From: a virus
DNA length: 36,311 nucleotides
Direction: 5' to 3' (one strand)
Virus record (IMG/VR): IMGVR_UViG_3300036828_000227
Span: 1-36,311 of that record
Part shown: positions 22,894 through 35,759 of the stretch, piece by piece
Position numbering within the stretch: position 1 is the first letter of the stretch
Layout: each line of letters begins with the position of its first letter
The notes under the pieces: generated by a model
What the model was told of the DNA's origin: nothing
Databases searched by the model: none
Seen by the model: only the letters and a program-made list of their open reading frames with translations
Made by a program: the position numbers and the translations under genes

Positions 22894-23112
22894 CTAGGCC
22901 AGGGTCTCGGGCCACGCATCCGCGCAGGGCTGACACAGCGCCACGCCGTCGCTGCTGGCGTAGATCGAGTTGAGGTGGACCAGCACGCCGCTGTGGCGTA
23001 GGTCGCCCAGGCACACGCCCATGCGGTCAGGGTGTCGGGCACCGCAGAAGCAGTGGCAGGGACGCGGCGACGGTGACAGCTGCTCGACCTCGAGCACGGC
23101 GGGTCGGCTCAC
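22894..23112 (-). CDS. 72-aa small zinc-binding-like protein
   Basis: GTG start overlapping the previous stop (GTGA). CHCFCGARHPDRMGVCLGDL and later LCQPCADAW give several Cys pairs in a zinc-ribbon-like spacing. Follows the ribbon-helix-helix gene and precedes the tRNA. Function unknown. Confidence 0.68.
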   Translation of the reverse strand: MSRPAVLEVEQLSPSPRPCHCFCGARHPDRMGVCLGDLRHSGVLVHLNSIYASSDGVALCQPCADAWPETLA

Positions 23113-23267
23113 AGATACGCCTCGAGGGCGGCAGCGATGACCTCGCCCATGGTCAGCTCCGGCTCCTGGCTGACGCAGTAGACCCGCAGCTTTCGATGCA
23201 GGCGGTTGGGCAGCGGCACGTTCACGTTGGTGGTCTTCGATTGGGCTGTGGTCTGTGTCGGTGGCAT
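23109..23267 (-). CDS. Ribbon-helix-helix DNA-binding protein (leaderless)
   Basis: 52 aa from ATG 23267. TTNVNVPLPNRLHRKLRVYC (beta strand plus helix) followed by ELTMGEVIAAALEAYL (second helix) is a CopG/Arc-type fold that binds palindromic DNA as dimers. The start is chosen because TATCAT lies exactly 7 nt upstream with no Shine-Dalgarno, implying a leaderless message. A perfect copy of the 16-bp palindrome lies 64 bp upstream, so this protein is one candidate for the regulator of that network (inference). Confidence 0.75.
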   Translation of the reverse strand: MPPTQTTAQSKTTNVNVPLPNRLHRKLRVYCVSQEPELTMGEVIAAALEAYL

Positions 23268-23274
23268 AAGCCCG

Positions 23275-23280
23275 ATGATA
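23275..23280 (-). promoter_or_regulatory. -10 box (TATCAT) of a leaderless promoter
   Basis: TATCAT on the - strand matches TATAAT in 5 of 6 positions; 7 nt separate it from ATG 23267, so transcription should start at or next to the A of the start codon. No good -35 is seen 16-19 bp upstream. Confidence 0.5.
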
Positions 23281-23330
23281 GCGCCTAGCGGGCTTAGAAC
23301 GCAGTCTTGTTGCAACCTCGAAAAACCTGT

Positions 23331-23346
23331 TGATAGACGTCTATCA
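23331..23346. promoter_or_regulatory. Operator site 7 (perfect palindrome TGATAGACGTCTATCA)
   Basis: The only fully symmetric copy. It lies about 50 bp upstream of the leaderless -10 of the leftward block and in the region between the leftward and rightward early genes, so it may be the master regulatory site. Confidence 0.85.
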
Positions 23347-23568
23347 CACGCCCATAAGTCCGCTTAGCCAACTAAGCTGGGACTTGCCTCCCAGCGGGGA
23401 GGTCGGGACAGTCCACCGCCCGGAACCGACGTGGACACGGAAGCTCCATGGTTGGAGCAGCGGACGGTCCGCTCGAAGTTCGAGCAGCAGGTTCGCCAGA
23501 GGCACCCGGTCGTAGTTCATGGCCGCGGAGAGAGCTGGCGGATTCGGATAGCCGTCGCCTATCTCCAA
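23344..23568 (-). CDS. Doubtful small ORF (- strand) in the divergent region
   Basis: Up to 74 aa (TTG start) or 58 aa from ATG 23520: NYDRVPLANLLLELRADRPL and onward. In its favour, the stop codon is supplied by operator site 7, as for other genes here. Against it: no ribosome binding site, and an overlapping + strand ORF (23431-23697) looks equally coding. At most one of the two is likely real. Confidence 0.27.
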   Translation of the reverse strand: MEIGDGYPNPPALSAAMNYDRVPLANLLLELRADRPLLQPWSFRVHVGSGRWTVPTSPLGGKSQLSWLSGLMGV

Positions 23569-23697
23569 CCCACGCAGTCGGTAGCGAGTCCCCGCAGCGG
23601 AGATGCCACCGTGCCGGTGCGGGAGATGACGGCCGCCGTAGCCGTCGACGGTGCGATTCGGCAGGCAGAGGCCGGACGGTTGATCGGCTCACCGTAA
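23431..23697 (+). CDS. Doubtful small ORF (+ strand) in the divergent region
   Basis: 88 aa from GTG: DTEAPWLEQRTVRSKFEQQV, later VREMTAAVAVDGAIRQAEAG. Composition is protein-like, but the ribosome binding site is weak (GGAA) and it overlaps a - strand ORF. The rest of the gap, 23698-23812, shows only a near-perfect inverted repeat CCGGAT-C-ATCCGG just before operator site 8. Confidence 0.27.
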   Translation: MDTEAPWLEQRTVRSKFEQQVRQRHPVVVHGRGESWRIRIAVAYLQPTQSVASPRSGDATVPVREMTAAVAVDGAIRQAEAGRLIGSP

Positions 23698-23812
23698 CGA
23701 AGCAAGCCGAACACCAACCACCAACCGGGTGACGATTCAGCCCGGAGGGTGGTCCGGTGCGCGCTGCTACCGCACTCACGTTGGCGGCGCACACCGGATC
23801 ATCCGGCGACGT

Positions 23813-23828
23813 TGATAGACGTCGATCA
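23813..23828. promoter_or_regulatory. Operator site 8 (TGATAGACGTCGATCA)
   Basis: One mismatch to consensus. It ends 16 nt before the ATG of the first rightward early gene and just before its ribosome binding site, where a bound protein would block transcription or elongation. Confidence 0.8.
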
Positions 23829-23844
23829 CCGAAAGGAAAGCCAG

Positions 23845-24081
23845 ATGCAACAGTGCATCCACACCGACTACACGCACGGCGTTGGTCCACGCGACCTGCC
23901 GTGCAACCGTCCCGGCCAGATCGAGGTCGAGTTCTGCCCGATCCACGGCACCGACCATCGGGTCGTTGACAGCGACTCGGTGCCGTCGATGCTCGGCTAC
24001 GGCTCGGACGACTCAGTCAAGTTGGCCTGCGGGCACAGCCTCACCTGGGACCCGTTCACCGGCAAGCCGTTCGCACGTTGA
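23845..24081 (+). CDS. 78-aa Cys/His-rich early protein
   Basis: ATG 23845 with AAAGGAAAG upstream. Sequence MQQCIHTDYTHGVGPRDLPC, then EFCPIHGTDH and LACGHSLTWDPF; Cys and His pairs (CIH, C...C, CPIH, CGH) suggest a zinc-binding fold. First gene of the rightward early operon, directly under operator site 8. Function unknown. Confidence 0.72.
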   Translation: MQQCIHTDYTHGVGPRDLPCNRPGQIEVEFCPIHGTDHRVVDSDSVPSMLGYGSDDSVKLACGHSLTWDPFTGKPFAR

Positions 24082-24116
24082 TTGTCAGCGGGCGCTCACC
24101 TGTCCCCGAACAGGTT

Positions 24117-24189
24117 GGGCGCACGATGCCAACCAGCATCCCGTCTGCTCGAGATTCGGGCTGACGGTGTTCCCGAAAGGAACGCAGTA
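24117..24189 (+). ncRNA. Structured 5' leader RNA, copy 1
   Basis: Upstream of ATG 24190. P1 GATGC/GCATC (24125-24129 with 24136-24140, 6-nt loop). P2 CCGTC/GACGG (24141-24145, 24063+100-24167 region: 24163-24167) enclosing P2b GCTCG/CGGGC (24147-24151 with 24157-24161, 5-nt loop), separated by a T-T mismatch. P3 GTTCC/GGAAC with loop CGAAA (24069+100 region: 24169-24173 with 24179-24183), which covers the AAGGAA ribosome binding site. Similar in sequence and fold to 25863-25937, with compensatory changes. No known riboswitch class recognised. Confidence 0.72.
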
Positions 24190-24918
24190 ATGACTACCAC
24201 CGAAACCACAGTCGCCACGCCAGCGGCCAACGGCAACGGGTTCAAGATGGACGCCGTCATCGACGCGATGCGCGAGCTCCACGACGAGCACGACCGTTGG
24301 TACTTGTCCGAGGTGCTGTTCGAGCAGATTCCGGCCGGTCTGGCCGGGTTCTCTCAGATCCTCGACAAGGCCAAGACCGAGGGCGTTGCCGGCAGCCTCA
24401 GCGTGAACACGCTCCGGCTCTACCGGGACACGGCCAGCCGTTGGCCCGCCGACAAGCGGGTCAAGGGCATCACGTTCAGCGCCCACCGTGAGGCGATGAA
24501 CCTGGGCGACGTGACCGCAGCCAACAAAATGCTGCGGGATCTCGCTCGTCAGGGCGGGACCGGAAACGTCACCGTCAAGAGGGTCCGAGAGGCCGTGGCT
24601 GTGGCACAGAACAAGCCGGTCCGTCAGCCGTCAACAACGGCGAACGCCAAGACGAAGGCGCTCGACGTGCTGAACGACCTCGAGGCCGGGGCACCGCTGC
24701 TGATCGCAGCGATCGGGCCCGCCACCGACGACGCCGCTCTCGACAAGCTCCACCAGGGGCTGACGAAGGCGATTGCGCACGTCGAGCGGCTCCGCGCGAA
24801 GGCCGCCCGCAAGGCGGCAGCGGCCAAGAAGCCGGCGCCGGCGACGGCGAAGGCAACAGCGGCCAAGAAGGCTGCATCGTCCACCAAGAAGGGCGCAGGC
24901 GACCTGCGCGGTCTGTAA
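24190..24918 (+). CDS. DNA-associated-like protein with histone H1-like Lys/Ala tail
   Basis: 242 aa. Thr/Ala-rich N-terminus; helical core about 20-130 with LSVNTLRLYRDTASRWPADK and FSAHREAMNLGDVTAANKML that may include a helix-turn-helix; C-terminus (about 200-242) of repeated KAAAAKKPAPATAKATAAKK type, as in H1-like bacterial DNA-binding proteins. Probably binds the phage or host DNA. It is translated from a structured leader and lies 15 nt before the MoxR-type ATPase gene. Confidence 0.7.
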   Translation: MTTTETTVATPAANGNGFKMDAVIDAMRELHDEHDRWYLSEVLFEQIPAGLAGFSQILDKAKTEGVAGSLSVNTLRLYRDTASRWPADKRVKGITFSAHREAMNLGDVTAANKMLRDLARQGGTGNVTVKRVREAVAVAQNKPVRQPSTTANAKTKALDVLNDLEAGAPLLIAAIGPATDDAALDKLHQGLTKAIAHVERLRAKAARKAAAAKKPAPATAKATAAKKAASSTKKGAGDLRGL

Positions 24919-24933
24919 GGAGGCAGACGACAC

Positions 24934-25812
24934 ATGGACACGACCACAGTTGCATTTGACCTCGACACGGTCCCGGCTGACGACCGGGACCGCGTCGCGG
25001 CCCTCATCCCAGACCCACGGATCGCCGAGGCTTACGTCCACCGGACGGTCGATGGGTTTGAGGACTTCGACATTCTCGATGTTGCGGTCGAGGAAGCCGA
25101 AAACGTCATCCTTGCCGGTCCCACCGGGTCCAGCAAGACCACGCTGTTCCGGGCCTACGCGGCCGCACGAGGCTTGCCATTCGTGGTGGTCGAGTGCAAC
25201 GCCGCCATGGACCCCGGCACGATCATCGGTCGCACGACGATCGGCCCCGACGGTTCGGTCCGTTGGGTCGACGGCGACCTCACGTTGGTCGTGCGCTACG
25301 GCGGCATCGCCCTGATCGACGAGATCAACATGGCGCACCCGCGGATCACCGCGGCATGGCACCAGCTGTTGGCCGTCACCCGGGCGATGTCGGTGCCGGA
25401 GAACGGCGAGACCGTCAAGGCCGGTCGAGGTGGTGTGGGTGAGCCGCAGCAGACGCTGTTCGCTGCGGCCTACAACCCGCGCTATCAGGGCACGGTGCGG
25501 TTGAACGAGGCTCTCGGCAACCGCTTCCCGATCCCGCTCGATTGGGATTACGACCGGACCGTCGAGGCGCAGTTGGTCACGTCGGAACGGTTGCTCGATA
25601 TGGCCGAGAACGTGCGGTCGTTGGCCGAGATCCGCAGTCCGTTGTCCACGAACATGCTGATGGAGTTCGAGCGTCACGTTGGTCGTTTCAACATGGCGTT
25701 CGCTCAGCGTTGCTTGGTCGGTCACTTTGCGACTGAGGAGAGGGCGGCGGTGGCCCGTGCGTTCGAGGCCAACAGCGGTGCGATCGCCGCCGAGCTTGGT
25801 CAGCCCGTTTGA
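24934..25812 (+). CDS. MoxR-type AAA+ ATPase
   Basis: 292 aa. Walker A GPTGSSKTT (62-70), Walker B IALIDEIN (125-132), sensor-1 region AAYNP with N181, and NRFPIPLDW with R197 as likely arginine finger. The sequence after Walker B (HPRITAAWHQLLAVTR) fits MoxR/CbbQ AAA+ proteins. Such ATPases act with VWA-domain partners in remodelling or metal insertion; the VWA partner is the next gene. AAGGAGGC precedes the ATG. Confidence 0.88.
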   Translation: MDTTTVAFDLDTVPADDRDRVAALIPDPRIAEAYVHRTVDGFEDFDILDVAVEEAENVILAGPTGSSKTTLFRAYAAARGLPFVVVECNAAMDPGTIIGRTTIGPDGSVRWVDGDLTLVVRYGGIALIDEINMAHPRITAAWHQLLAVTRAMSVPENGETVKAGRGGVGEPQQTLFAAAYNPRYQGTVRLNEALGNRFPIPLDWDYDRTVEAQLVTSERLLDMAENVRSLAEIRSPLSTNMLMEFERHVGRFNMAFAQRCLVGHFATEERAAVARAFEANSGAIAAELGQPV

Positions 25813-25844
25813 CCGATCCGTTGGCTGCCAGCGGGCGGCCACCT

Positions 25845-25860
25845 TGATAGACGCCTATCA
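25845..25860. promoter_or_regulatory. Operator site 9 (TGATAGACGCCTATCA)
   Basis: One mismatch to consensus. In the gap between the ATPase and VWA genes, immediately upstream of the second structured leader. Confidence 0.85.
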
Positions 25861-25862
25861 CG

Positions 25863-25937
25863 GTGGTCGCACGATGCAAGTCAGCATCCCGTTGTCCGAA
25901 GTCCGGGCAACGGTTCGCCTCCCGAAAGGAGGAACCG
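25863..25937 (+). ncRNA. Structured 5' leader RNA, copy 2
   Basis: P1 GATGC/GCATC (25873-25877 with 25884-25888). P2 plus P2b form one continuous 10-bp helix: CCGTT/AACGG (25889-25893 with 25909-25913) then GTCCG/CGGGC (25894-25898 with 25904-25908, 5-nt loop). P3 CCTCC/GGAGG with loop CGAAA (25918-25922 with 25928-25932) hides the AGGAGG ribosome binding site of the VWA gene. Relative to copy 1, P2 changes C-G to T-A and P3 changes G-C to C-G and T-A to C-G, preserving pairing. Confidence 0.75.
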
Positions 25938-27803
25938 ATGAACACCGACCGCCGGCAGCGGTACGGTTCGACCACCGTTGACGTGGCCGACGCCGAACTC
26001 ACGCCGGAGCAGATCGTCCGGCTGACACGCTTGGGTCGTGAGCTTCGCTTGGTGGATCAGATCCTGTCGACCGATGTCGACAAGGTGCAGATCGTCAGCA
26101 AAGGCCCGGCGCCAGCATGGTCGTCGCTCGAGGGTGACAAAGTCAGCTTCGCAGCGACGCGGATGCCGGACCCGGTTGACCGCTACGACCTGGCGGTGTG
26201 GTTAGGGACGAACGCCCACGAACTCGGGCACGTTCTCTACTCACCCCGTCGTGAGTCGCCGCTGATGCAGCGAGTGATCGCGGGCAGCGACTCATACCTC
26301 GAAGGTCTGGCTCGGATGCACAACATCGTCGAGGACCAGCGCCAAGAACGGCTGATCCTGGCACGCTTCGCTCCGTGGCGTGGCTACTTGGTCGCTGCGC
26401 TCGGTCATCACCTGCACGCCGACAACGATTCGGCATGGCTGCTGATGGCCGGACGGACGTGGCTGCCCGAAGCGACGAGGGCCAAGGCGCGGGCGCATTT
26501 TGTGGCGCACCGTTCCGAGGCCGTTGCCGTCGAGGTGGCCGAGCTGATCGGCCAGTACCAGCGGCTGACGGACCCAGGTTGGACCGACAGCGACGAAGCG
26601 TGGGACGTGCTGATCGCCCTGCACTCCTTGTTCGACAATGAGATCCCCGAGGGGATCGGTTGCACGATCATGGAAGGCGGCGAGCCCAGCACCGATCCTG
26701 CTGACGCTGATGGTGCGCCAGTCACGGCCGACGAGGCCGAGGCCGAACGCCAGGCTGAGGCCGGCGGCGAGGGCGCCGAGGACGCAGGTGACGACGGGGG
26801 CGACCCCGGCGATGCCCGCAGCCAAGGCACTCCCAACCGGGACAGCAAGCCCGACGACAGCCGCGACGATGCGGCCGACGCCGGCAGCCAGGGCAAGGGC
26901 GCGGGCACGCAGTCCGCTCCCCCGTCCAAGCGTGAGCAGCGAGACGCGCTGCGGGACGAGCTGCGTGACGCGGCCGAGTCTCAGATCGACGAGGACGATG
27001 ATTCGCTCGACGAGCTGGATTCGATCCTCGACGCTCTCGACCACGGCCGGGCGGCCGACGACGTTGACGGCACTCCTGCCGAGGGCCATTACGTCGAAGC
27101 CACCGATCACGCCCGCCAGCTCCACCGTGAGATCGGCGAAGTCCTGTTGGATTTCAAGGACGCCACGGAGCCGGGCTGGAACAAGCGGACTGATTCGGGT
27201 CGGTTGAACGTGCGACGTTTGCTCGACCCGTTCGCTGACGCCGACACGCTGTTCGACCGCTACGAGCCGGGGCAGATGGACGCCACGGCTCTCGAGGTCG
27301 TTCTGCTGCTCGACATCAGCGGTTCGATGGCCCAGGACGTCGACGATCTGGCTGAGGCAACGTGGGCCATTCGTCAAGCCGTCGACGATGTCGAGGGAAC
27401 GATCACGGTGTTGACCTACGACACCCGTCAGTACGTTCTCGCGGCTCCCGGCGAACGGCCGGACGACCGCATGTTCGTCCCGGCTGCGATGGGCGGCACC
27501 GATCCCACGTCGGCGATCGGTGAGGCCTGGCAGATCCTGGCCGGTAGTGAGGCCCGCAACAAGCTGTTGATCATCATGACCGACGGCTCGTGGTCGTACA
27601 GCCAGCGGCCGGAAGAACTGATCGACGCGATGCGCCGTTATGGCGTCGCCACGATCATGGCCTTCCTGCCGCCGAAGTACGGCGACAACGGTGAAACGCC
27701 GATGCACCACTGCGAGTTTGGTGGCCGCATCGCAAGCCTGGTCGAGCTGCCTCGGCTGTTCCAGCACGTCGCACTCCGGCAGATGCAGCGAGTGTGGCTA
27801 TGA
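25938..27803 (+). CDS. HExxH metalloprotease-like / VWA-domain protein
   Basis: 621 aa. N-terminal domain has HELGH (94-98), a zinc metallopeptidase signature, with a following acidic helix (NIVEDQRQE, about 129-137) as possible third ligand. About 245-365 is a highly acidic, disordered linker (runs such as GDDGGDPGDA). The C-terminal VWA domain has a complete MIDAS: DISGS (459-463), T521 and D549 (IIMTDGS). This matches CobT/CoxE-type VWA proteins that pair with MoxR ATPases, here the preceding gene. I infer an ATPase-VWA machine acting on a metalloenzyme, cell envelope or host target; the role in a phage is unknown. Confidence 0.85.
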   Translation: MNTDRRQRYGSTTVDVADAELTPEQIVRLTRLGRELRLVDQILSTDVDKVQIVSKGPAPAWSSLEGDKVSFAATRMPDPVDRYDLAVWLGTNAHELGHVLYSPRRESPLMQRVIAGSDSYLEGLARMHNIVEDQRQERLILARFAPWRGYLVAALGHHLHADNDSAWLLMAGRTWLPEATRAKARAHFVAHRSEAVAVEVAELIGQYQRLTDPGWTDSDEAWDVLIALHSLFDNEIPEGIGCTIMEGGEPSTDPADADGAPVTADEAEAERQAEAGGEGAEDAGDDGGDPGDARSQGTPNRDSKPDDSRDDAADAGSQGKGAGTQSAPPSKREQRDALRDELRDAAESQIDEDDDSLDELDSILDALDHGRAADDVDGTPAEGHYVEATDHARQLHREIGEVLLDFKDATEPGWNKRTDSGRLNVRRLLDPFADADTLFDRYEPGQMDATALEVVLLLDISGSMAQDVDDLAEATWAIRQAVDDVEGTITVLTYDTRQYVLAAPGERPDDRMFVPAAMGGTDPTSAIGEAWQILAGSEARNKLLIIMTDGSWSYSQRPEELIDAMRRYGVATIMAFLPPKYGDNGETPMHHCEFGGRIASLVELPRLFQHVALRQMQRVWL

Positions 27804-35281: not shown

Positions 35282-35451
35282 GGCAGGCCGACCGCGTGCT
35301 CGTGCTCGTGCGCCGCCTCGAGGGCGGCTTCTCGGGTTTGGCGTTCGGCCGAGAACCAGCAGCCGTCGACGGGGCATTGGGCGTACCAGCAGTCGGCCGC
35401 GGCGTCGTAGCGAACGGTGACGCACGCCCGGCTGTGGCGGGTGAGGGTCAC
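35278..35451 (-). CDS. 57-aa small protein between HTH and RusA genes
   Basis: GTG 35451 to TGA 35278, overlapping both neighbours by GTGA. Reads TLTRHSRACVTVRYDAAADC, then WYAQCPVDGCWFSAERQTRE and a His/Glu tail. CPVDGC beside WFSAERQTREAALEAA looks like a small zinc-binding fold. The double overlap and protein-like composition support it. Confidence 0.68.
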   Translation of the reverse strand: MTLTRHSRACVTVRYDAAADCWYAQCPVDGCWFSAERQTREAALEAAHEHEHAVGLP

Positions 35452-35672
35452 GGCTCGATCGAAGCGGTGCCGCCGGCGGCCAGGAACTCGTCGAGGGCAG
35501 CCCGCTCGATGCGGACGGCCTTGCCGACTCGGAACGCTCGGAGGCGGCCGGCGTAGACCAGTCGTTTGACCGTGAGAGCGTGGACGCCGAGCTCGTTGGC
35601 GACCTCTTGGTAGGTCAGAGCATGGCCGTCCGACGCCGACTCATCGCGTCGCTTTGCCGCAGATCGAGGCAC
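35448..35672 (-). CDS. xis: Excisionase-like helix-turn-helix protein
   Basis: 74 aa from GTG 35672, chosen for GGGAGG 7 nt upstream. LTYQEVANELGVHALTVKRL, then VYAGRLRAFRVGKAVRIERA and ALDEFLAAGG: the MerR/HTH_17 excisionase pattern (helix-turn-helix, then 'G.L.afrvGk..ri....l..fl'). First gene of the leftward replication operon, about 130 bp from attP arm repeats, so it may direct excision, regulate the operon, or both. Confidence 0.8.
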   Translation of the reverse strand: MPRSAAKRRDESASDGHALTYQEVANELGVHALTVKRLVYAGRLRAFRVGKAVRIERAALDEFLAAGGTASIEP

Positions 35673-35759
35673 GAGTGCCTCCCTTCCAAAACTCCCCAGC
35701 AACCCACGTTGTCCCTGGTAGGCGGCGGCTGCTCGACCTCTGTTCCGGTTAGCGACGGG

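Follow-up and report, generated by a model that had tools for sequence, protein, structure and literature searches.

Actinophage repeats associated with gene starts have been known since 2011; they have no agreed function, and whether they act as DNA or as RNA is open. The SAS (Start-Associated Sequence) and ESAS (Extended SAS) repeats of cluster K mycobacteriophages occur where some of the non-structural genes start (Pope 2011, PMC3203893). The authors favored DNA sites over RNA hairpins, for which they saw scant support (PMC3203893). Promoters lie within the ESAS of phage Adephagia (PMC11373665), and the function of SAS/ESAS is still termed open (PMC12699233). We describe here a leader family whose covariation and strand asymmetry point to RNA, at least in one group of phages.

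The DNA analyzed (the window) is a complete IMG/VR record of 36,311 bases. Its two ends carry genes for an integrase (169-1047) and an excisionase-like protein (35448-35702), respectively, as found in temperate phages that are integrated or circularly permuted; the window is therefore a temperate phage or prophage. The leader family has 12 members, distributed over four phage contigs that are related to each other: two in the window, three in IMGVR_UViG_3300047160_003675 (L003, found through an ATPase protein scan together with a core pattern), six in IMGVR_UViG_3300036828_000346 (G013, also L235, one of the more distant ATPase relatives), and one in G002. All 12 copies are sense-oriented and lie shortly upstream of early-operon starts. 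The window features are as follows.

24076 to 24090, + strand: tentative hairpin H1 of leader 1 (CGTTGA-TTG-TCAGCG), weakly supported by the window and L003 copies
24086 to 24091, + strand: conserved CAGCGG of leader 1, preceding P0; unchanged in 11 copies, with CAACGG in the twelfth
24092 to 24122, + strand: long hairpin P0 of leader 1, from folding and covariation over 12 copies
24125 to 24140, + strand: hairpin P1 of leader 1 (GATGC-N6-GCATC), from folding and covariation
24141 to 24167, + strand: hairpin P2 of leader 1, from folding and a covariance model match
24169 to 24183, + strand: hairpin P3 of leader 1, containing the ribosome binding site, from folding
24190 to 24918, + strand: gene downstream of leader 1, protein of unknown function
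24934 to 25812, + strand: AAA ATPase gene, between the two leader-bearing genes
25819 to 25833, + strand: tentative hairpin H1 of leader 2
25829 to 25834, + strand: conserved CAGCGG of leader 2, preceding P0
25835 to 25870, + strand: long hairpin P0 of leader 2, from folding and covariation
25845 to 25860, + strand: P0 loop palindrome of leader 2 (16 bp, TGATAGACGCCTATCA); the window has 12 such sites
25873 to 25888, + strand: hairpin P1 of leader 2, from folding and covariation
25889 to 25913, + strand: hairpin P2 of leader 2, from folding
25918 to 25932, + strand: hairpin P3 of leader 2, containing the ribosome binding site, from folding
25938 to 27803, + strand: gene downstream of leader 2, for a protein with a VWA domain (score 23.3 in Pfam, slightly below the cut-off of 23.8)

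The AAA ATPase gene has no leader of this family in the window and has one in L003 and G002. The three L003 leaders precede a gene resembling 24190 (the first leader), the ATPase gene, and the VWA gene, respectively. In G013, nearly every early gene is preceded by a copy, and the single G002 copy is upstream of the ATPase gene. A search with the protein of gene 24190 as the query retrieved no relatives. The ATPase and VWA genes (24934-27803 in the window) are also adjacent in Gordonia phage GMA6, in which the short gaps upstream of these genes are without such a leader.

The SAS/ESAS of cluster K is the nearest known kind, and the leader family shares its position and form but is not a member. 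As in ESAS, the leaders precede a subset of non-structural starts, immediately 5′ of the ribosome binding site, and contain imperfect inverted-repeat arms (here, those of P0) around a variable spacer, with an arm sequence that varies from phage group to phage group. The 13-bp SAS GGGATAGGAGCCC was not found at the starts with up to two mismatches, and its matches in the window with up to three mismatches numbered 11 against 12.1 expected, with none at the leaders. Unlike ESAS, the leaders have arms that covary as RNA, additional hairpins P1 and P2, and a spacer that often holds a genome-wide palindrome. A simple consensus scan of 23100-26100, which actinobacterial promoters may escape, detected no sigma-70-type promoter and, unlike in the Adephagia ESAS, no sigma-A-like promoter. 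The SAS/ESAS-like elements of cluster EF Microbacterium phages (PMC7302621) likewise combine a repeat whose sequence is conserved at the ribosome binding site with a weakly conserved upstream part, but differ in the repeat itself (SAS GGGAAAGGACCCC, ESAS centered on GTAGAG), as judged from the repeats printed in that paper. In cluster O mycobacteriophages, an array of 17-bp palindromes (PMC4351075), and in cluster A the stoperators, resemble the 16-bp palindrome of the present phages in having many copies spread over the genome, within and between genes. However, their words are different and are not reported to be tied to a hairpin leader, and the cluster A sites are asymmetric.

The original prediction was that the leaders of genes 24190 and 25938 are homologous over approximately 72 nt. 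Homology was confirmed, as leader 2 used as a query against its own record returned leader 1 (E 8.9e-9), but the proposed extent was too short by approximately 40 nt on the 5′ side. This part includes hairpin P0, which is directly upstream of P1 and belongs to the homologous unit in both leaders (24092-24122 and 25835-25870). The z-scores of the minimum free energy (MFE) for leaders 1 and 2 were − 2.0 and − 3.4 over roughly the span originally considered, and − 3.4 and − 5.9 once the 5′ part was added. The MFE folds of both leaders agreed with the proposed common fold, consisting of P1 (GATGC/GCATC), P2 abutting P1, and P3 with the loop CGAAA. The pair changes listed for P2 (C-G to T-A) and P3 (G-C to C-G and T-A to C-G) were all correct. 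The leaders had not been recognized as a known riboswitch class, in agreement with the Rfam scan: only a tRNA exceeded the curated threshold in the window, nothing exceeded it in L003, L235, or L005, and weak matches were at the chance level. The leader is a candidate RNA family absent from Rfam.

A covariance model built from leader 1 and two L003 copies recovered leader 2 (E 1.2e-12) and the third L003 copy (E 3.2e-9). The original prediction is supported as far as it concerns a structured leader RNA that has compensatory changes and homologues. A plain descriptor (CA[GA]CGG, at least eight of nine arm positions paired, ACG[AG]TG) matched exactly the 12 copies, whereas background sequence gave one match in 3.45 million strand-bases. 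The ATPase genes of G006 and G009 follow leaders that are similar but have diverged further and were left out of the 12, and most relatives with 60-72% identical ATPases have no recognizable leader of the family. A search of 50,697 phage records with leader 2 gave no match. Matches of the core pattern in genome contigs were scattered across unrelated bacteria and were rejected as chance by their context and count. R1 matches in L020, L309, and L315 were also rejected, as they lack the leader anatomy.

We examined covariation over the 12 copies, with the loops replaced by a fixed spacer to give rows of equal length and the row register set by hand from the flanking CAGCGG and ACG[AG]TG. In P0 and P1, 97.0% of the cells were paired compared with 87.2% in the shuffled sets, and 14 cells showed both-sided changes compared with 3.4 expected from shuffles. 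Pairs with a both-sided change numbered six compared with 2.9, and the covariation score was 0.404 compared with 0.208. P0 alone had 10 both-sided cells against 2.7. When the partner was slid by one to three columns, pairing fell to 28-51%, and every slid register failed. The sequences are related and the significance from shuffling is therefore overstated, so that differences between copies within one genome weigh more. Pair 3 of P0 is A-U, G-C, and C-G across the three L003 copies, and pair 4 is C-G and U-A among the G013 copies. In addition, in distinct rows only, the sense strand of P0 contained G-U in 10 cells and A-C in one cell. This ratio and the pair changes between copies of the same genome indicate that the sense RNA is the selected molecule, and three different identities of pair 3 in L003 would hardly be tolerated by one DNA-binding protein. 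The analysis shows that the copies are homologous, sense-oriented, and consistent in position, that pairing in P0 and P1 is under selection, and that the leaders match no known class.

Each copy is situated between two cistrons and is arranged in the order CAGCGG, P0, AC, P1, P2 (where present), and then the next gene's ribosome binding site. The P0 arms form nine counted pairs with 12-37 nt between them; ESAS arms are 17 bp long. P2 is absent in 5 of the 12 copies, which are five of the six G013 copies. CAGCGG and AC are the only conserved unpaired letters, while the junctions and loops vary; CAGCGG, AC, and most of GATG are conserved in sequence beside the covarying stems. Extended pairing of CAGCGG with ACGATG would compete with P1, and these letters vary too little among the copies to show covariation. 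H1 was rejected as a fifth hairpin, as it is kept only in the window and L003 and not in the G013 and G002 copies. P3 had been proposed to sequester the ribosome binding site. P3 does pair this site in the two window leaders and in the majority of the copies, but the pairing did not exceed that of 99 crudely called control genes from the same GC-rich phages (mean 0.79 vs 0.75, p 0.17).

The palindrome that leader 2 carries in its P0 loop belongs to a larger set. With up to two mismatches to TGATAGACGTCTATCA, the window contains 12 sites, compared with none in 100 shuffles, at the following positions.

2443, 3391, 11346, 12954, 17738, 20575, 23331, 23813, 25845, 29502, 31007, and 35855: palindrome sites in the window

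G002 contains 19 exact copies of the palindrome, and G013 contains 22 copies of another word, TGACATTCGAATGTCA, approximately one per 2 kb. These sites probably form a repressor-site array of palindromic type, comparable to the cluster O repeats (PMC4351075) or to stoperators. The palindrome is located inside the P0 loop in 8 of the 12 leader copies, including leader 2 and the G013 and G002 leaders. The other four copies (W1, which is leader 1, and La, Lb, and Lc) keep the P0 stem without the palindrome, and the hairpin is therefore apparently maintained for its own sake. Hairpin embedding was not seen as a general property of palindrome sites outside the leaders.

Several explanations were weighed against these observations. 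Chance similarity or coding constraint might be suspected because GC-rich genomes fold readily, but it is refuted by the E-value between the two leaders, the copy number against background, and the shuffle controls for covariation, and we give it practically no weight. The original prediction suggested a translational switch responding to a ligand, protein, or temperature. As a metabolite riboswitch or RNA thermometer, P3 would keep the ribosome binding site hidden and release it upon ligand binding or heating. The pairing of this site in most copies and the series of several hairpins fit such a device, and absence from Rfam is compatible with a new class. However, no ligand core is conserved among the copies, with only CAGCGG and AC conserved among the unpaired letters, and the downstream genes (ATPase, VWA protein, and small unknowns) have no evident common ligand pathway. 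Because the binding-site pairing is ordinary, P2 is lost in five copies, and the loops vary, the switch reading has no specific basis, and we consider it very unlikely. The leader could alternatively be a DNA element, in which a protein recognizes the arms and palindrome as an operator, stoperator, or promoter, in the way proposed for ESAS, and the RNA fold is a by-product. The genome-wide palindrome in most P0 loops is in favor of this explanation, as are the reading of the same-form cluster K ESAS as DNA sites (PMC3203893) and the Adephagia promoters (PMC11373665). It is opposed by the compensatory arm differences between copies of one genome, the 10 to 1 excess of G-U over A-C in the sense strand, covariation that extends to P1, the lack of promoter hexamers in 23100-26100, and the four P0 hairpins without a palindrome; on balance, it is unlikely.

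We favor a phage-specific, repeated, cis-acting leader RNA of the early non-structural operon that sets translation and mRNA stability, to which we assign roughly an even chance. Judging from their position and anatomy, the hairpins would act on the mRNA post-transcriptionally. Each cistron would become a separate unit, with a structured, degradation-resistant 5′ end and a start that the leader shields from the ribosomes and the RNA structure of the preceding gene, and several early genes may thereby be expressed together at set levels. In copies with the palindrome in the P0 loop, the same DNA would also serve lysogen silencing, as a probable repressor site. Against the leader-RNA role, the copies are few and come from four contigs related to each other, pairing at the ribosome binding site is unremarkable, and most relatives with similar ATPases lack a recognizable leader. 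The palindrome in eight P0 loops and the ESAS precedent with the Adephagia promoters (PMC11373665) also leave room for a DNA role. The leader RNA might instead be a docking site for a small RNA or for a protein of phage or host origin, which would turn several early genes on or off jointly at translation. The same element does precede several genes of one operon, and CAGCGG, AC, and most of GATG are conserved next to covarying stems, but the conserved unpaired letters are few and no candidate regulator emerged; we regard this possibility as doubtful. Finally, the leader may be a dual DNA and RNA element with the repressor site as the apex of the hairpin, so that the same regulator or fold would silence the early genes in transcription and translation, and the palindrome word would be swapped across relatives while the hairpin frame is kept. 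We judge this quite improbable. The leader copies are natural compensatory variants that can be used for a direct test of RNA pairing.

A search with the ATPase profile against 396 genomes of the phylum of L115 gave no match at 1e-50, and no host was therefore found. The palindrome word varies among related phages (TGACATTCGAATGTCA, TGTTAGACGTCTATCA, and TGCTAGACGTCTAGCA; G013 (L286, L287) versus G002, G008, G007, G009, and the window), and the genome-wide spread is kept in most relatives despite the change of word, as if repressor specificity had been swapped. Some palindrome sites in the relatives adjoin promoter-like sequences. L235 has two further leaders, preceding the ATPase gene and the first operon gene (G013 sites 37699 and 39024), in which the palindrome is capped by hairpin arms of unrelated sequence that form 11 perfect pairs each. 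L010, another relative, carries its own pair of hairpin leaders that are similar to each other, one upstream of the ATPase gene, where the match runs from 4001, and one upstream of the following gene (after 4882); these leaders precede the same two genes with a sequence unlike that of the 12-copy family.
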